Below are positions 14,929 to 27,622 of a stretch of 60,236 nucleotides of DNA, piece after piece. The stretch's first letter is position 1, and the number at the start of each line of letters is the position of its first letter. The position numbers were made by a program, and so were the translations under genes. Origin of the DNA: Spirochaetia bacterium (GTDB taxonomy: Bacteria; Spirochaetota; Spirochaetia; CADAEX01); assembly GCA_017535435.1 (NCBI GenBank), contig JAFXTY010000074.1:1-60236 (forward strand), given 5' to 3'. Below the pieces are notes generated by a model. It saw only the letters and a list, made by a program, of their open reading frames with translations. It ran no database searches and was not told the origin of the DNA.

Positions 14929-15288
14929 ATGTTTTCGGATTTAAACCAGCTGTTTGTGCGGCTGGCAGCCTCGAAATTCAGAAGCAGCTTCCACCTACGC
15001 AGGCGGGAGCTGTCTTATTTTAAAGAGAAGGGGCTTGATACAATAATGGAGCATGCAAAGGATCTGCTCCAGACCCGCCTGTTCGCCGCCGAAATACCCA
15101 ACGACGGCAAGCAGACACCCATGAAGAATCATCCGGTGTTCATAGCCCAGCATGCCACAGGGTGCTGCTGCCGGGGCTGCCTGGAGAAGTGGCACGGCAT
15201 CCCCAAGGGGAGAGAGCTCACTTCCGAGGAGCAGCAGTATGTGCTTGCCGTCATCCGGGAGTGGCTGGCGCGGGAAACTACTTCTTAG
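14929..15288 (+). CDS. DUF4186 family protein
   Basis: A 119-aa protein matching the DUF4186 family: RSSFHLRRRELSYFKEKG, then IPNDGKQTPMKNHPVF and HATGCCCRGCLEKWHGI. The conserved histidines and clustered cysteines suggest a metal site, but no function is known for the family. It starts one base after the SPOR gene stop without its own ribosome site, so translation is probably coupled. Its last 11 bases overlap the end of the convergent WYL regulator gene. Confidence 0.85.
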   Translation: MFSDLNQLFVRLAASKFRSSFHLRRRELSYFKEKGLDTIMEHAKDLLQTRLFAAEIPNDGKQTPMKNHPVFIAQHATGCCCRGCLEKWHGIPKGRELTSEEQQYVLAVIREWLARETTS

Positions 15289-16273
15289 TACTTTTTTCAG
15301 CGTTCTCTGCCATCTGCTTAATATGCCCCTGCCACTCCTCCACCAGCCATTCCGGTTCCCGTGGAATTGCATTGCCCCCCTGAGACAGCACCCAATTCTG
15401 AACTGAACCATACTGGGTAGCAGTGAACTCAATCCTGGTCCTGTCCTCTTTGTCAAAATCTTTAATCTTCTGGTCATCTGCCCAAATCCTATCTTTGATA
15501 TACTGCCGGGCATCTCTATAGAAATCAATTACATAATTATCCTTGTCCTTTGAGGCAAAAAGGCCAAAATGCCCCCCGCCACAATGGGATGCAAAATCAT
15601 AATCCTCAGGAAGTTCAAAATGCTCTTGGGTAATCTTCAAGTTCTTTATTCTGTTAAGGACAAAAGTACGCATATCCTGCCGTTCCTCGGCAAAGCCATA
15701 GAGATAGCACACACCATCGTTAAGCAGCAGCTGGTACGGATGCACCCGGCGGTGGGTCATTTCTGTATTCCATCGGCCAGTGTAATCAAACTCTATCACG
15801 CTGTTGTCCTGCAGAGCTTTGATGACATCATTCCAAACCTGATTATCGTCCACAACAAATACAGGAGTCGGAGGAATTGCAATACGCTTCAAAAGATTGC
15901 TCTTACCAGTAGCATGAGTTCTAGTCACAAAGTCGATTACATCAGCAATCTTCTCATAGAGCGGGCTTCCCTGAAAGCCAGATAGAAGTGTCTTGGCCGC
16001 AGAAAGAAAGAATACATCCTGAGCTGATATGATGTTCAGCGGGAAATCCCAATCATTCTCATAATAATAATAACCGTTTCTTCCGCGGTCATACTTAAGT
16101 GGCGCATAATAACGATCTCGCAGAATATCGATATCTCGACGCAAAGTGACATCTGTCACTTCTGAACCAGTCTGCTCGAAGCACAAATCCTTCAGCTTCT
16201 TAAAACTTGGGTATGTGCCAGGCTTTATTGCATAGTGGATAACCCAAAGGCGTTCAATTATATTGTTATTCAT
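15278..16273 (-). CDS. WYL-domain transcriptional regulator (copy 1)
   Basis: A 331-aa regulator with an N-terminal DeoR-like helix-turn-helix (TDVTLRRDIDILRDRYYAPL, about residues 38-58) and a WYL ligand-binding domain in the second half (HRRVHPYQLLLNDGVCYLYGF). It is a paralogue of the regulator at 26642-27622: both share RDRYxAPLxYD followed by NGYYY. WYL proteins sense nucleic acid fragments or other ligands and often control DNA-damage or defence genes. It stands upstream of the accessory island at 16.4-19.6 kb. There is no Shine-Dalgarno; an extended -10 lies seven bases before the ATG. A 10-bp palindrome AGAATATTCT (16312-16321) sits in the shared upstream gap. Confidence 0.88.
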   Translation of the reverse strand: MNNNIIERLWVIHYAIKPGTYPSFKKLKDLCFEQTGSEVTDVTLRRDIDILRDRYYAPLKYDRGRNGYYYYENDWDFPLNIISAQDVFFLSAAKTLLSGFQGSPLYEKIADVIDFVTRTHATGKSNLLKRIAIPPTPVFVVDDNQVWNDVIKALQDNSVIEFDYTGRWNTEMTHRRVHPYQLLLNDGVCYLYGFAEERQDMRTFVLNRIKNLKITQEHFELPEDYDFASHCGGGHFGLFASKDKDNYVIDFYRDARQYIKDRIWADDQKIKDFDKEDRTRIEFTATQYGSVQNWVLSQGGNAIPREPEWLVEEWQGHIKQMAENAEKSTKK

Positions 16274-16280
16274 ATTCTTT

Positions 16281-16289
16281 AGTATAACA
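16281..16289 (-). promoter_or_regulatory. Extended -10 (TGT-TATACT) for WYL copy 1
   Basis: On the minus strand TG, one base and TATACT (16286-16281) are followed by seven bases and the ATG at 16273. The expected start of transcription is at or one base before the start codon, and no ribosome site is present. Confidence 0.45.
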
Positions 16290-16359
16290 ACAAACTATAT
16301 AATCGTGTGAAAGAATATTCTAGAAATTAAAACCACTACACGTTTTAGAAAAACTTTTG

Positions 16360-16365
16360 TATATT
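16360..16365 (+). promoter_or_regulatory. -10 hexamer TATATT placed for a leaderless message
   Basis: TATATT at 16360-16365 is followed by six A's and the ATG at 16372, so the predicted +1 is the start codon. The -35 region is weak and there is no ribosome site. Confidence 0.35.
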
Positions 16366-16371
16366 AAAAAA

Positions 16372-17148
16372 ATGAATTACGAGGATTTATTTAAAAAATC
16401 TGGCGAAGAAAATGAAAGAATAACTTTGCTCAATCTTTATAAAAAATGGAGAAAAATTCCTAATATTAATAATGACAGCTTCACCGCTGATGGTTTTTAT
16501 CCGGGATATTTTTCAGCAAAACACAAAGTGCTGTTTATTGGGCGAGAACCCAGATATGCTCAAAAAACAGGGGATAAAGACCGCGTTACCTTTGATTTGG
16601 CATGGTTTGAGAAGACCCTGATAGAAAAAAAAGGGCTGGGAGCCTACTGGAAAAGAATTTATACCCTTGACGATCTTATACAGGCTGAGAAACCTGTTCA
16701 AAACAATTTAATTAAAGATGCTAAAACTATTCTGGCCCGACGGAAAGAAAACAATAATTACGGCATTGCAATAATTAATATTTCCAAATATATAAACGAA
16801 GATGAAAAATCAAGTGGGAACAAATCAAATATCAAGCAGATTAATACTTTTTTAAAAACCCCTAATAACATAAACTTTATCCGTGATGAAATTATGCTTC
16901 TTAACCCAGATATAATCATTCATGCAAATTTGTGGGGATGTGGAATAGACCGTGACTATCTAAATCAAATATTTCCCTATCTTGAAAAATTGGGCGAGGA
17001 AGGTTCTGTGATTCTCAGCGATTTTCGTTTCAACGCTAACAATAAACCAATAAAATTTATACAAACATATCACTTTTCTGCCAGAAAAAACCCAAAAAAT
17101 CATTTTTATGATCCCGTTATGAAATTGCTGTCTAAATATTATTTTTAA
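16372..17148 (+). CDS. Hypothetical protein, AT-rich orphan
   Basis: A 258-aa soluble protein with no signal or membrane segment. I do not recognise its family with certainty. The order FYPGYFSAKHKVLFIGREPR near the start and TYHFSARKNPKNHFYDPVM near the end faintly recalls uracil-DNA-glycosylase-like folds (an early GxEPG-type motif and a late H-containing motif), but this is a weak resemblance only. Its codons are much richer in A and T than those of its neighbours, which suggests later acquisition. The ATG at 16372 is chosen; a TTG at 16357 is in frame. It is a single gene between the WYL regulator and the exonuclease operon. Confidence 0.7.
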   Translation: MNYEDLFKKSGEENERITLLNLYKKWRKIPNINNDSFTADGFYPGYFSAKHKVLFIGREPRYAQKTGDKDRVTFDLAWFEKTLIEKKGLGAYWKRIYTLDDLIQAEKPVQNNLIKDAKTILARRKENNNYGIAIINISKYINEDEKSSGNKSNIKQINTFLKTPNNINFIRDEIMLLNPDIIIHANLWGCGIDRDYLNQIFPYLEKLGEEGSVILSDFRFNANNKPIKFIQTYHFSARKNPKNHFYDPVMKLLSKYYF

Positions 17149-17185
17149 AATAATACCAATTCTACCACTCCACAAACAAACACAA

Positions 17186-17203
17186 AGCTCCCCGCAGGGA
17201 GCT
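17186..17203 (-). terminator. Hairpin after the exonuclease operon
   Basis: A 7-bp stem AGCTCCC/GGGAGCT with loop CGCA lies just past the stop of the last gene of the minus-strand operon. On that strand it is followed by a T-rich but interrupted tract (TTTGTGTTTG), so it is a plausible but imperfect terminator. Confidence 0.45.
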
Positions 17204-17219
17204 GCGCCACAAGCCCAGT

Positions 17220-17819
17220 CTACTTCCAGGCAAACATAATATTGATCTGATACATGAAGTTATCCTTCTTCATGTTGACCGCATCCGGCAGCGAGAAGGT
17301 CTCGTTGCGGTCCAATATATCTTTCAGAAGGTCCCTAGGCTGATCCTCTATGCCAATCTGCTCCTCAAAAGAGAGCTCTTCCTCCCCATCTCCAAAGGAA
17401 AGGAACGGCCCCCAGTATCCAGTGAGCTCGCATAGGTTTTGCCACAGTTCCCGCTTCTCTTCTGGAACATCAATAGGCAGATATTCCACCTCGCAGCCTA
17501 TAAAGTATCCCTTATAAGCTGAAAGCCCTGCTTCAATCTTTCTGTCAAAATCCAATTTTATGTTCAACATCTCATCATAAGCCTCGCGGTAGAGGCTCAA
17601 GAGGGCATTGTTCAGATTCTTGAGGCTCTGGGTGTTGGCAGGTGTCCATTCAAACATGTTGTCGAGAAGATGCTTCCGGAAATATAGATTCTTTCGGACT
17701 TTTTCCTCTTCCTTAAGGGTCTCCACTTCGTTTTTCAGCCGTTTCAGCTGCTCTTTTTCCCACTTCTCTATATAATCGTGTGCGTCGTCTGATATCTCTT
17801 TTGTGCTGAATGCATTCAT
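17220..17819 (-). CDS. Uncharacterised protein, paralogue A flanking the exonuclease
   Basis: A 199-aa acidic, charged protein of no family I recognise. An N-terminal helical stretch (about residues 10-45) looks like a coiled coil. It is homologous to the protein at 18409-19041. Shared blocks are FEWTPAN against FDWSPEN, REAYDEM against RKAYDRM, KLDFDRKI against KADFDARI, and the ends ETFSLPDAVNM..DNFMYQI against DTYSIHDLLQM..EDFRYQI. The conserved FxW[ST]PxN and F.YQI motifs are probably structural or functional. It has an AAGGAG ribosome site and starts 12 nt after the exonuclease stop. No signal peptide is seen, so it is likely cytoplasmic. Confidence 0.75.
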   Translation of the reverse strand: MNAFSTKEISDDAHDYIEKWEKEQLKRLKNEVETLKEEEKVRKNLYFRKHLLDNMFEWTPANTQSLKNLNNALLSLYREAYDEMLNIKLDFDRKIEAGLSAYKGYFIGCEVEYLPIDVPEEKRELWQNLCELTGYWGPFLSFGDGEEELSFEEQIGIEDQPRDLLKDILDRNETFSLPDAVNMKKDNFMYQINIMFAWK

Positions 17820-17831
17820 AATTTCACTCCT

Positions 17832-18407
17832 TTATAGTTGTCTCAGTTCAAGGCCGCAGACATTAAGCAGCTTATCAACGGAAGCCACTTTCTGAGCCTT
17901 GGCGGCCAGGTGGATAATTTTGCCACATGTGCGGGCATCGTCCAACGCATCATGGGCATTGTATTTAATTAAAAAATTCTCTCCCAGATAGGTGAGCTGG
18001 TGACATTCCAGATCGGGCCATGTCCTCTGGGCAACCCTGCGCGAATCAAAATAATGCAGCTCCGGAACAGGCATCCCGAAGTAGTCCATGCACCCCCTGA
18101 TTACATTCATGTCAAAGGGGGCGTTGTGGGCTACCAGCGGCAGTCCTGGAGCCTGCGCAAGGAAGGGGACCACAAGGGTATTCCAGATTTCTGGAAACTG
18201 CGGCTTATTCCGTACATCATCGTAGGAGATATGATGTATCTCCTCTGTCCATTCCGGGATAAAATACATCTTGGCCGGATGTATGAGGGAATAGAGGCTT
18301 GCGACCTCCTCCCCGTCAAAAAACCGGACCAAGCCGATTGAACACGCGCTGTTGGCGTAGGTGTTCGCTGTCTCAAAGTCAATTGCAACATAATCAAGTC
18401 CTTTCAT
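17832..18407 (-). CDS. DEDDh-type 3'-5' exonuclease (DnaQ-like)
   Basis: A 191-aa exonuclease of the DnaQ/RNase T fold. The four acids and the general-base histidine are visible: AIDFETAN (Asp, Glu), VAHNAPFDMNVI (Asp) and YNAHDALDDA (His, Asp). It has no polymerase or helicase domain, so it is a stand-alone nuclease; stand-alone members act as proofreading subunits, RNases or oligonucleotide trimmers. It lies between two paralogous unknown genes in a tight operon: its ATG is one base after the upstream stop, and AAAGGA precedes it. The context suggests the three proteins work together, but this is inference. Confidence 0.9.
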   Translation of the reverse strand: MKGLDYVAIDFETANTYANSACSIGLVRFFDGEEVASLYSLIHPAKMYFIPEWTEEIHHISYDDVRNKPQFPEIWNTLVVPFLAQAPGLPLVAHNAPFDMNVIRGCMDYFGMPVPELHYFDSRRVAQRTWPDLECHQLTYLGENFLIKYNAHDALDDARTCGKIIHLAAKAQKVASVDKLLNVCGLELRQL

Positions 18408-18408
18408 A

Positions 18409-19041
18409 TCACATTCCTTTAAACTTCACCTTAATCTGATAACGGAAGTCCTCCACCCGCATCTGCAGCAGGTCATGGATGCTGTAGGTGTCATTGTCGT
18501 GAATGAGCGAGTACAGAAAATAATGAATATGAACTCCAGCAAGGGCAGGATTGTCAAAGGGCGGTCTAGACCAAGAAATCTCATCCAGCATGACATCATC
18601 AAAGGGCTTTACATCCTCATCGGCCCCGCAGGAGAACTCGGGCTGCCAATCGGTATAAACACCCAGCTTAAACCACAGCAGGGTCAGGTCTGGTGTAGTT
18701 TGATCCGGCGCCTCATACCAGAACCGTGTCACGATGGAATAATTTTCATAAGCCTCATCACCACAGGCAATCCGTGCGTCAAAGTCAGCCTTCAGATACA
18801 CCATCCGGTCATAAGCCTTGCGGAGGAGTTCATACACTCCATTGTTCAGATCAATAATTTTCCGGACATTTTCTGGGGACCAATCAAAGGCGGTACTGAA
18901 AAACCACTTCCGCACAAACAGGCCTTTCAGTTCCTCGCCTTCCTTCTTCAGATAATTCAGGGTGGCTTCTTCATACCCTGTCTTCCATTGCTGTTCAAAT
19001 CTGGTAACAGCATCTTTTAATTTATGATCTAATTTATTCAT
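18409..19041 (-). CDS. Uncharacterised protein, paralogue B flanking the exonuclease
   Basis: A 210-aa protein homologous to the one at 17220-17819, with conserved FDWSPENV, RKAYDRM, KADFDARI and, near the C-terminus, SIHDLLQM followed by DFRYQIKV. It is not a family I know. The ATG at 19041 is chosen because it makes the N-terminus the same length as in paralogue A; an ATG at 19071 adds ten residues that run into the inverted repeat. Neither start has a clear ribosome site, and TGT-TAGACT seven bases before 19041 could be a poor extended -10. It is the first gene of the operon with the exonuclease. Confidence 0.72.
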   Translation of the reverse strand: MNKLDHKLKDAVTRFEQQWKTGYEEATLNYLKKEGEELKGLFVRKWFFSTAFDWSPENVRKIIDLNNGVYELLRKAYDRMVYLKADFDARIACGDEAYENYSIVTRFWYEAPDQTTPDLTLLWFKLGVYTDWQPEFSCGADEDVKPFDDVMLDEISWSRPPFDNPALAGVHIHYFLYSLIHDNDTYSIHDLLQMRVEDFRYQIKVKFKGM

Positions 19042-19064
19042 AACCCAAAGTCTAACAAGCCACC

Positions 19065-19139
19065 CTATCATTTCATGCTAGTGTCAAAAAAATAATGAAA
19101 AATTTTTATTTCCGACATCACTATGTCATGAAATGATAG
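19065..19139. repeat. Inverted repeat with nested dyad between paralogue B and the Sel1 gene
   Basis: Perfect 13-bp arms CTATCATTTCATG (19065-19077) and CATGAAATGATAG (19127-19139) are separated by 49 bp of AT-rich DNA. A second dyad, GACAT-CACT-ATGTC (19114-19127), touches the right arm. The structure fills the 143-bp gap between two divergent genes. It could be a two-site operator that loops DNA, or a pair of recombination or transposon ends; no transposase is nearby. Confidence 0.8.
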
Positions 19140-19185
19140 TCCCCGGTGTTACCTTTATCTCATAAATTTAATATGGAGGAAAAAT

Positions 19186-19584
19186 ATGAATGAACCCAGG
19201 GCAAGATGCTGTGTAAGAATGGGACATCGTTACTTCTTTTTTAAGGAGAACCGTACTGAAAAAGACAGCAGGAAGGCTGCCGAATGGTATGCCAAGGCTG
19301 CGGAAGAAGGGGATAAAAATGGTCAATTCTGGTATGGATGCTGCTTTTACTTGGGCGATGGAAAAGAGCAGGATTACGGGCAGGCTGTCTTCTGGTTGGA
19401 AAAAGCGGCAGAGCAGGGGCACTCCGGGGCTCAGAAACTCTTAGGTGACTGCTATTTCCACGGCCATGGGGTGACGCAGGACTACAGAGAAGCTGTAGAG
19501 TGGTACAGGTTAGCTGAAAAGAATGGTTTAGGCTCTGCGAAAAAACTTATTAAGGAGGTAGAAAAACACTCTACCACAATGTAG
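19186..19584 (+). CDS. Small Sel1-repeat protein
   Basis: A 132-aa protein made of about three Sel1-like repeats (TPR-type helical hairpins): DSRKAAEWYAKAAEEGDKNG, DYGQAVFWLEKAAEQGHSGA and DYREAVEWYRLAEKNGLGSA. Such repeats mediate protein-protein contacts. There is no signal peptide, so it is probably cytoplasmic, although many Sel1 proteins are exported. The ATG follows a GGAGG ribosome site. It is divergent from the exonuclease operon across the inverted repeat and ends on a terminator hairpin. Its partner is unknown. Confidence 0.85.
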   Translation: MNEPRARCCVRMGHRYFFFKENRTEKDSRKAAEWYAKAAEEGDKNGQFWYGCCFYLGDGKEQDYGQAVFWLEKAAEQGHSGAQKLLGDCYFHGHGVTQDYREAVEWYRLAEKNGLGSAKKLIKEVEKHSTTM

Positions 19585-19594
19585 TAGAGTGTTT
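19564..19594. terminator. Bidirectional terminator between the Sel1 gene and aspS
   Basis: A perfect 11-bp stem (AAACACTCTAC at 19564-19574, GTAGAGTGTTT at 19584-19594) with a 9-nt loop lies at the junction of two convergent genes. The rightward T/A-rich side and the A-run on the left allow it to serve both strands. The Sel1 stop codon lies in the hairpin. Confidence 0.75.
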
Positions 19595-19602
19595 ATAAAA
19601 AC

Positions 19603-21399
19603 TTATGCGTCCTTGCTGTCCTCTTCAGGCGGTAGGGTCACTGCGATATGCAGCTCGTCCAGCTGGGCCTGGGACACAGGGGTCGGGGTGTCGCACATCA
19701 TACAGGTTGCCTTCTGTGTCTTTGGGAATGCGATTACATCCCTGATGGACTCTGTGCCGAGGAACAGCATCACAAGCCGGTCCAGGCCCAGCGCGAGGCC
19801 ACCGTGTGGCGGAGTACCCAGTTCAAGCGCATCCAGCAGGAAGCCGAACTGCTGCCGTGCCTGCTCCAGCGGGATGCCCAGCACCTCAAGGATCTTCTCC
19901 TGCAGCTCTGGGTCGTGGATTCTGATACTTCCACCACCAGCCTCGTGTCCGTTGAATACGATATCGTAGGCATCGGTCCTGATGTTCAGGAGGTCGCCGC
20001 TGTACAGCTTAGGCAGGTCTTCCTTGACAGGTGAGGTGAATGGATGGTGAACAGCAGAGAGCTTGCCCTGATCGTCCAGCTCGAACATCGGGAAGTCCAC
20101 AATCCAGGAGAGGCATTTCTCGTTCTCATCGTACAGATTAAGCTTCTTTCCGAAGAAGTTCCGGAGTTCAGAGAGACAGTTGCATACGATTTTCTCGCTG
20201 TCTGCAACGAAGATAAGAACGTCGCCGACCTCTGCCTCCATCCTCTCGTACAGAGCCTTTGATTCAGCCTCTGTGAAGAACTTGATGATAGGGGACTGAG
20301 GTCCGTCCGGATTCATCTTGATCCATGCAACACCCTTTCCACGGAGCGGCTTTACAAAGTCGGTCATGGCATCCAGGTCTTTTCTTGCCAGCTTGGAGCA
20401 GGCGCCCTTCAGGTTGATACCGCGCACCTTGCCTTTCTTTGCCAGTGTGTTCTTGAATACAGAGAACTCGGTGTTGGCGAAGACATCAGAAAGTTCCTTG
20501 ATCTCAAGGCCGAAGCGGAGGTCCGGCTTGTCGCAGCCGTATTTAAGCATAGCCTCCTGATATGTCATCCGTGGCAGAGGAAGCTTGAGGTCGATGTTCA
20601 GGAACTCCTTGAAAAGCTCCTTGAAAAGGCCCTCCACTACAGCGATGATGTCGTCCTGTGTGATGAAGGACATCTCCATATCCACCTGGGTGAACTCAGG
20701 CTGTCTGTCAGCTCTCAGGTCCTCGTCCCGGAAGCACTTTGCAATCTGGATATAGCGGTCGAAGCCGGCTGTCATAAGAATCTGCTTGAAAAGCTGAGGG
20801 CTCTGGGGCAGAGCGTAGAAGCAGCCTTCCCGGACACGGCTTGGAACCAGGTAGTCCCGGGCTCCCTCTGGGGTAGACTTGTTAAGGATTGGGGTCTCCA
20901 CCTCGACAAAGTCGTTCTTATAGAAATACTCGCGGATAGCGTGCATCAGGTTGCTTCTGAATACCAGGCAGTTTCTGATGGCCGGGTTCCGCAGGTCGAT
21001 ATAGCGGTATTTAAGACGGGTCTCGTCGTTTACCTTCTCGGCATGCAGTGCTTCAAATGGAGGTGTCTTGGACTTGTTCAGAATCTCCATGTCGTTGATA
21101 TATACTTCAATCTCGCCGGTTGCCAGCTTGGGGTTTGCCATTCCTTCCGGGCGCAGCCGCACTGTTCCCTTGGCAGCGATGACAAACTGGCTTCTTAAGC
21201 CACCTGCAAGGTCGTGGATCTCTTTTCCGCATACCTCTGGGTCAAATACAATCTGTGCCAGTCCCCACCGGTCGGTAAGGTCGATGAAAATGATTCCGCC
21301 GTGGTCCCGGTAGTTCTCCACCCATCCGCACAGGGTAACCTCTTTTCCTACATCTTTTGCGGTCAGCTGGCCGCATCTGAAATTTCTCTGTAATCTCAT
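19603..21399 (-). CDS. aspS: Aspartyl-tRNA synthetase
   Basis: A 598-aa class II synthetase of the bacterial type. The N-terminal anticodon-binding OB-fold begins [15 protein letters not shown]. Motif 2 is [19 protein letters not shown] and motif 3 is [15 protein letters not shown]. The inserted GAD-type domain between motifs 2 and 3 gives the bacterial length. It is the last gene of gatC-gatA-gatB-aspS. Co-transcription with the amidotransferase suggests it is non-discriminating, charging both tRNA-Asp and tRNA-Asn, with GatCAB converting Asp-tRNA-Asn to Asn-tRNA-Asn. No asnS or glnS is in the window to test this. Confidence 0.96.
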
Positions 21400-26641: not shown

Positions 26642-27622
26642 TCAATAGCTTTTGAAAATCTTCTTCGCTTCCTGCTTAACCCGGTCAGCCAGCTCCGGCG
26701 GGCTTAAGACCTTGACAGCGCTGCCGAAGTGAAGCACCCAGAAAAGGGTCTCCTGCATCTGGTTGGAACGGAAGGAAAGATAGACTGTGCCATCCTTGTT
26801 CTGCTTCATCTTCTGCCCCTCGTGCCAGTTGCGCTCCAGTATGTATGTGCTTATCTCCTTGGAGAAAAGGAGCTCCACCTTCACCGGGGCCGTAGGGTTG
26901 TTCCACACGCCGAAATTGGGGTCCACATGCTTCTTTATATCGAAGTCTGCAGGCACCTTGAACTGCTTTTTGGTGCAGGATATCTTCTGCATCCTGGAAA
27001 GGGAGTAGATCCGCACTTCTCCAGCCTTATGGCAGAAACCGATGACATACCAGTTGCCTTTCTGGCAGATCACCTGATAAGGATCGAGACACCGGGGACT
27101 ATACTCCTGCTTGCCCAGGGATCGGTACTGGAAGTCCATGCTCACACGGAGCTTGACGGCTTTGAAAACAGTGTTGAACACCACATTATCGATATTGGGC
27201 AGCGGGTCGGATATAAACTGGATTCCACCAGCGGCAAAGCTTGAGTTGACCGACACCTCTTCCGGCAGCATATCGGTGATTTTCTGGAAAATGCTTTTGA
27301 AGGAGGCCTCCAGCGGGGTGTTCTTATACTGCTCCAGAAGGGGGATGATGGCCGATACTGTAAACAGCTCACCTTCGGAGAGCATCACGCTCTTGATGAA
27401 GAAGGTGGGGTCTGTGTAATAGTATCCGTTTTTCTCCGCATCATATTCCAGAGGGGCATTGTAGCGATCCCGGAGGAACTCAAGATCCCGCATGATAGTG
27501 CTTCTGGAAACCTCAAACTTCTTCTCCAGCTGGGGGGCATTGGGATATCCCCCCTCCCGGATTATCCTGTCGATCTCTAACAGCCTTAGCGACTTGACTT
27601 TGTCTTCTCTGCTCTTTGCCAT
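26642..27622 (-). CDS. WYL-domain transcriptional regulator (copy 2)
   Basis: A 326-aa regulator with an N-terminal helix-turn-helix (VSRSTIMRDLEFLRDRY, about residues 38-55) and a WYL domain (about 145-220: CLDPYQVICQKGNWYVIGF) followed by a WCX-type C-terminal part. It is a paralogue of the gene at 15278-16273. It follows ddc by 12 nt in the same direction, yet has its own promoter in the 3' end of ddc and appears leaderless. It could regulate dat-ddc or the downstream methyltransferase, whose promoter begins just beyond its stop. Confidence 0.88.
   Translation of the reverse strand: MAKSREDKVKSLRLLEIDRIIREGGYPNAPQLEKKFEVSRSTIMRDLEFLRDRYNAPLEYDAEKNGYYYTDPTFFIKSVMLSEGELFTVSAIIPLLEQYKNTPLEASFKSIFQKITDMLPEEVSVNSSFAAGGIQFISDPLPNIDNVVFNTVFKAVKLRVSMDFQYRSLGKQEYSPRCLDPYQVICQKGNWYVIGFCHKAGEVRIYSLSRMQKISCTKKQFKVPADFDIKKHVDPNFGVWNNPTAPVKVELLFSKEISTYILERNWHEGQKMKQNKDGTVYLSFRSNQMQETLFWVLHFGSAVKVLSPPELADRVKQEAKKIFKSY

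Follow-up and report, generated by a model that had tools for sequence, protein, structure and literature searches.

A palindrome phased to an extended -10 box marks the promoters of a WYL-associated accessory island in a rumen spirochaete

A stand-alone exonuclease gene (exo), flanked by the paralogous genes A and B, lies in a small accessory island in the 1.7 Mb genome of a rumen spirochaete. The promoters of this operon, of the divergent Sel1 gene and of the island's WYL regulator gene contain the same element, the palindrome CTATCA-N5-TGATAG, at a fixed 10–11 bp from an extended -10 box. This promoter switch is newly recognised. Computation established the island and the element, as well as how specific the element is across the genome and how it is linked to WYL, exo and A/B genes. 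We propose, with a probability of about 0.6, that the island is switched by its WYL protein through activation resembling that by DriD, that B-exo-A is cargo of the island, and that A and B are not an antidote to the exonuclease. The window referred to below is the whole stretch of DNA analysed, of 60,236 nucleotides; its relevant features are collected in Table 1.

Table 1. Features of the accessory island and its promoters (window coordinates).
Feature	Position	Strand	Evidence and remarks
Accessory island	15289–19602		between DUF4186 gene (14929–15288) and aspS (19603–21399)
WYL regulator, 331 aa	15278–16273	-	N-terminal winged-HTH-like region, WYL (Pfam 2.4e-17), WCX (4.7e-07)
Degenerate composite promoter of WYL gene	16281–16313	-	CTTTCACACGATTATAT-N7-TGT-TATACT; 3 mismatches
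AT-rich gene, ~257 aa	16357–17148	+	homologues (49%) in sister islands G002 and G006
A	17220–17819	-	paralogue of B; family uncharacterised
exo, stand-alone DEDDh 3'-5' exonuclease (RNase_T / DnaQ-like)	17832–18407	-	Pfam RNase_T 2.2e-18
B	18409–19041	-	first gene of operon; paralogue of A
Composite promoter of B-exo-A	19049–19081	-	palindrome 19081–19065 (CTAGCATGAAATGATAG) + N7 + TGT + TAGACT; 1 mismatch, best match in genome
Divergent composite promoter of Sel1 gene	19123–19155	+	palindrome 19123–19139 + N7 + TGT + TACCTT; 2 mismatches, second-best in genome
Sel1-repeat protein, 132 aa	19186–19584	+	Pfam Sel1 9.6e-28
Inverted repeat between the ends of Sel1 and aspS, probable terminator	19564–19594		15-nt arms, 93% complementary

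The occupancy of the site between the DUF4186 gene and aspS differs from genome to genome. It is empty in the close relative G004, where 8 nt separate the two genes, and holds one small gene in G005 and unrelated genes in G001. The gap measures 4.3 kb in the window, 11.8 kb in the sister species G002 and 13.3 kb in G006, and all three contain a WYL regulator and exo. Within the window, to which the GC measurements refer, the island genes are lower in GC, the AT-rich gene having a GC content of 0.32 compared with 0.53–0.56 in the flanks. A previous sequence-only reading of this DNA had noted the WYL regulator, AT-rich gene, Sel1 gene and inverted repeat around the operon, and had described a defence- or stress-like island; all of these features are present, and the description is supported. 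In the best reading, a small acquired or mobile island carries B-exo-A as one of its cargo operons. PADLOC recognised no known anti-phage system in the window and gave no significant model for A or B. A resemblance of the AT-rich gene product to uracil-DNA-glycosylases is a weak lead that could not be confirmed (Pfam UDG E-value 0.14, failing the cut-off, with no support from the PDB). A second WYL gene is found outside the island, at 26642–27622. It is probably a core gene, since homologues with about 29–30% identity to the island WYL protein occur in most members of the genus.

B, exo and A form a tight operon on the minus strand, with gaps of 1 bp (B/exo) and 12 bp (exo/A), and its coordinates, strand and reading frames are as read previously. 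The start of B was set at 19041 rather than at the start of the longer reading frame at 19071, as the former fits the predicted -10 box at 19054–19049. The proposed homology of A and B is also confirmed: they are true paralogues (31% identity over 178 residues, E-value 4e-24), and a search of the whole genome with B recovers A. AlphaFold2 models of A (pLDDT 86) and B (pLDDT 77) have an identical order of elements, H-H-E-H-E-...-E. The motifs FxW(T/S)PxN, (R)xAYDxM and a C-terminal N(E/D)T(F/Y)S are common to A, B and three copies in G002. Comparison of A and B with Pfam, NCBIfam, PADLOC and PHROGs gave nothing convincing, and for neither protein was a relative of solved structure found. Foldseek returned no match with an E-value of 0.001 or lower for either model against the PDB or for the B model against viral models. 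Relatives of A/B or exo were not found in viral contigs, nor relatives of B in plasmid and phage records.

The exonuclease is clearly a DEDDh 3'-5' exonuclease of the RNase_T superfamily (67.8 bits in Pfam, against a cut-off of 24). Its active site had been described as intact, and indeed all five catalytic residues (D10, E12, D99, H152 and D157) are present and are invariant in 33 relatives. It does not reach the curated cut-off of any named NCBIfam family, and its only PADLOC match is a generic DEDDh / PDC-S48 one. The fold and all catalytic residues are shared with the DnaQ/PolC-type exonucleases (PRK06195, PRK06807); unlike these, the exonuclease in the window stands alone and is carried on an island. 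Genes of the island type (82–83% identity) are found in only three of the seven genus members, these being the window's genome, G002 and G006.

The B-exo-A arrangement recurs once, in the sister species G002 (locus L007/L097), where a fused double A/B copy, exo and a further A/B copy follow in one direction beside the same aspS gene. Between the two species A/B have diverged to 33–41% identity, and exo to 83%. The suggested check, whether the order recurs in distant genomes, found it no further away than this sister species. A profile search of 395 genomes of the class found A/B members in 11, and in nine of the 11 they are not in an operon with exo, although one of the nine does have a truncated copy about 5 kb away. 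Conversely, relatives of exo (54–83% identity) occur at about 30 treponemal loci that have no A/B within 5 kb.

As the sequence-only reading had supposed for the window, the A/B family tends to be kept as two copies: elsewhere they are tandem genes (G185), convergent genes (G330) or double-domain fusions, clearest in G283 and G310 and with a weaker second domain in G312 and G254. The first and second domains of the fused proteins form separate clades, and A and B of the window are closer to copies in other genomes (best 41% and 39%) than to each other (31%), in a tree whose branching is poorly supported. Together, these observations argue for two specialised halves of one unit, rather than a nuclease antidote. 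We infer both the pairing of A with B and their role: most likely, they constitute a paired (hetero-oligomeric) accessory module. The fused double A/B genes at L089:8338-10001, L093:9201-10727 and L094:1275-3106 adjoin not exo but a conserved uncharacterised protein of 154–168 residues (YGIKxxGxPLD...).

The composite pattern CTATCA-N5-TGATAG-N7-TGn-TANNNT was searched for in the whole genome of which the window is part. The WYL promoter is one of three matches with up to three mismatches in the window. It is also one of six in the genome with exactly three, another lying on a different contig, 22 nt ahead of a gene for an AAA-ATPase. Relatives of that ATPase gene often carry the palindrome, and in G003 and G006 the gene has the composite at precisely the same distance of 22 nt. 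All three window promoters retain the TG of TGn. The operators of the window are not all perfect, two of the three having 2 and 3 mismatches, and the -10 boxes of B and Sel1 are weak. The arms of the inverted repeat at 19065–19077 and 19127–19139 belong to two operator-like palindromes, one for each of the divergent promoters. Only 7 nt separate the -10 box of B from its ATG, so that the message is probably leaderless or nearly so. An identical 15-mer, CTATATAATCGTGTG, is found at 16295–16309 in the WYL promoter region and at 17768–17782 inside the coding sequence of A.

The palindrome is not restricted to the window. Loci containing exo were fetched regardless of the palindrome, and it is present, allowing one mismatch, in 10 of their 25 non-redundant upstream regions; among 89 palindromes with permuted arms, the best scored 1. 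Exact matches, tallied by hand, outnumber those to a reversed control in family f24, which includes Treponema bryantii (74 against 3), in family f42 (21 against 2) and in the window's genus (12 against 0), but hardly in the unrelated family f9 (18 against 14). Many of these counts come from related genomes, and the promoter analysis was made on sets cleared of redundant copies. All eight exact sites of T. bryantii lie on one 240-kb contig. Following 73 non-redundant exact sites, a TATAAT box (5/6 or better) occurs 49 times at offsets of 10–11, compared with 0–8 times at any other single offset, and TGn is present at 24 of 74 sites, compared with 0–4 at control offsets. In G002, CTATCACGCAATGATAG stands ahead of each half of the fused A/B gene, and in Treponema the palindromes sit before exo, WYL, A/B and other accessory genes. 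Common regulation of the island promoters through the shared element is well supported. We predict from sequence that many further islands in Treponema, likewise of a stress- or defence-like kind, are governed by the same switch.

The most likely reader of the switch is the neighbouring WYL regulator, probably of the DNA-damage type. A WYL gene lies within 5 kb of exo at 18 of 31 treponemal loci. Among the WYL genes of the loci collected, 35 in all, 17 carry the palindrome; some of those loci were chosen for it. Within the genus the palindrome is confined to the four genomes in which the WYL orthologue has at least 50% identity (G000, G002, G003 and G006), and both sister genomes and Treponema have WYL orthologues (48–69% identity) next to exo, the palindrome or both. 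The assignment of a reader to a given site is less certain, because several WYL paralogues occur near such sites. No relevant paper on a WYL regulon in Treponema, or on defence islands linked to WYL there, was found by a literature search in which subscription journals were mostly not covered. In a genome named as Fibrobacterota (Candidatus Fibrimonas termitidis; L036:455-2071), a WYL gene lies directly upstream of exo with no palindrome.

A profile of the operator-linked WYL proteins was compared with the PDB. PafBC was the first match (7e-14), followed by CapW (2e-5), DriD (about 1e-4, the most fully aligned) and BrxR (0.04). PafBC is a mycobacterial activator of the DNA damage response; it is a WYL protein, is activated by ssDNA and, as proposed here, stands in for recognition of the -35 (PMC11804915). 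It is a heterodimer and uses a -26 motif, whereas here there is a symmetric palindrome and one WYL gene. DriD of Caulobacter crescentus is an ssDNA-sensing WYL activator of an SOS-independent DNA damage response. Its pseudo-palindromic site, ATACGAC-N7-GTCGTAT, is centred on a poor -35 at a constant distance from the -10, with a G at -14, and its targets, which include the exonuclease gene recJ and the nuclease gene bapE, involve a bidirectional promoter (PMC12340889). The island regulator has the same WYL-WCX organisation, and the palindromes likewise lie over a poor -35 at a constant distance from the -10, with the G at -14, a bidirectional promoter and an exonuclease gene among the putative targets. 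The sequence of the site is not the DriD consensus, and the putative targets are accessory island genes; the system may therefore work like DriD but is not classified as DriD. BrxR is a WYL repressor whose binding site consists of 11-bp inverted repeats separated by 5 bp, and CapW represses from a palindrome over the -10 (PMC9122601, PMC9122588). As with these, the WYL gene here is in an accessory island with 5-bp-spacer inverted repeats upstream of itself and of the cargo. The island differs in having no BREX or CBASS core genes, and in a palindrome that ends 10–11 bp upstream of the -10, rather than covering it (CapW) or lying between promoter and gene (BrxR); the BrxR match is also far weaker than that of PafBC or DriD.

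We hypothesise that a WYL dimer binds the palindrome, whose centre lies near -31/-32, and thereby takes the place of the missing -35 at one fixed turn from the extended -10 box (TGn-TANNNT). A signal of damaged or invaded DNA, probably ssDNA in the WYL domain, would then cause RNA polymerase to be recruited or retained, as in DriD. B-exo-A and Sel1 would fire from their common 144-bp divergent region and the WYL gene from its own copy of the element. The exonuclease would trim 3' ends of nucleic acid, and A and B would work alongside it. On the best reading, A/B and exo are thus the cargo carried by a DNA-damage or phage-defence island that a WYL protein switches. Both activation and the ssDNA or DNA-damage signal are suggested by analogy. 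The same island and operators might instead be controlled by a BrxR/CapW-like repressor sitting over the promoter, released by a ligand on infection so as to de-repress B-exo-A and Sel1. We consider this unlikely, but it deserves attention: both of those proteins repress through palindromes, the spacer is that of BrxR, CapW is among the profile matches, and CBASS operons controlled by CapW can carry the 3'-5' exonuclease Cap18. An extended -10 promoter can work with no -35, and therefore repression fits as well. Nevertheless, the strict phasing of 10–11 bp in the absence of a -35 is expected of an activator in contact with RNA polymerase and not required of a repressor, the palindrome covers the -35 and not the -10 as in CapW, and it is the activators PafBC and DriD that rank first and align most fully.

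Two further readings were compared with the DriD-like one. The sequence-only reading had suggested that A/B could be a sensor, inhibitor or immunity partner of the nuclease, and a toxic nuclease held in check by two immunity or antitoxin proteins would suit both the tight operon and the fast divergence of the flanking paralogues relative to exo. Such a pair would require the nuclease always to be accompanied by its partner. The distributions described above, with exo repeatedly lacking A/B and A/B lacking exo in most genomes, go against this, and absence of the partner so often argues against an obligate antidote; we rejected it as very improbable. The observations that were named in advance as telling against the suggestion, no recurrence outside close relatives and homologues scattered without the nuclease, are largely what was found. 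Even less probable is a repair exonuclease that merely stands beside two unrelated hypothetical genes in a neutral operon, with no common regulation. It is true that exo is DnaQ-like and that a distant paralogue (about 35%) is present in each of the six other members of the genus that were searched. However, none of these paralogues has the palindrome upstream (up to 2 mismatches), compared with four of the seven island-type genes; the best composite promoter in the genome belongs to B-exo-A; and the arrangement is kept in G002 in spite of the A/B divergence.

Palindrome-marked islands encode GmrSD-type restriction proteins, a UvrD-PDDEXK helicase-nuclease, IetA-like AAA ATPases and a MoxR/VWA pair, as well as RtcB, LRAT, Sel1, a stand-alone DnaB core, a tubulin/FtsZ GTPase domain and the C-terminal domains of FlhA and FlhB. 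This suggests a defence- or damage-response-like assortment. Little is known of how defence and damage-response islands are regulated, and spirochaetes have received hardly any study in this respect. An exactly phased short motif means that the regulon of any Treponema genome can be listed from sequence alone; it could reveal new defence-like families, A/B among them, and it makes activation or repression directly testable with one reporter. More speculatively, and on balance doubtfully, a single class of DriD-like WYL activator with one composite promoter might run a portable, family-wide damage- or phage-response regulon in Treponema and its relatives. Its cargo would include A/B, as a new paired protein family, and stripped-down copies of core machines (FtsZ-type GTPase domain, DnaB helicase core, cytosolic domains of FlhA and FlhB, and RtcB), possibly acting as decoys or guards.

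Several of the marked genes are worth describing individually. One palindrome-marked operon of T. bryantii (L176:11230-19044; G310:C3) encodes a MoxR-like AAA protein, a DUF2201 VWA protein, a stand-alone FlhA C-terminal domain (FHIPEP 4.8e-71), an FlhB C-terminal domain and a WYL protein, and L178 has a related arrangement. Stand-alone FtsZ-type GTPase-like proteins of 215–234 residues are found in marked islands at L172:4399-5046 (Pfam Tubulin 1.9e-41) and L179:8996-9700, the latter recognised by the start of its sequence only. In three genus members the composite precedes the ATG of an IetA-like AAA ATPase gene (554–555 residues; L182:4986-6650, L183:8878-10545 and L190) by exactly 22 nt; this gene is divergent from a WYL gene in L183, and has a WYL paralogue nearby in L182.
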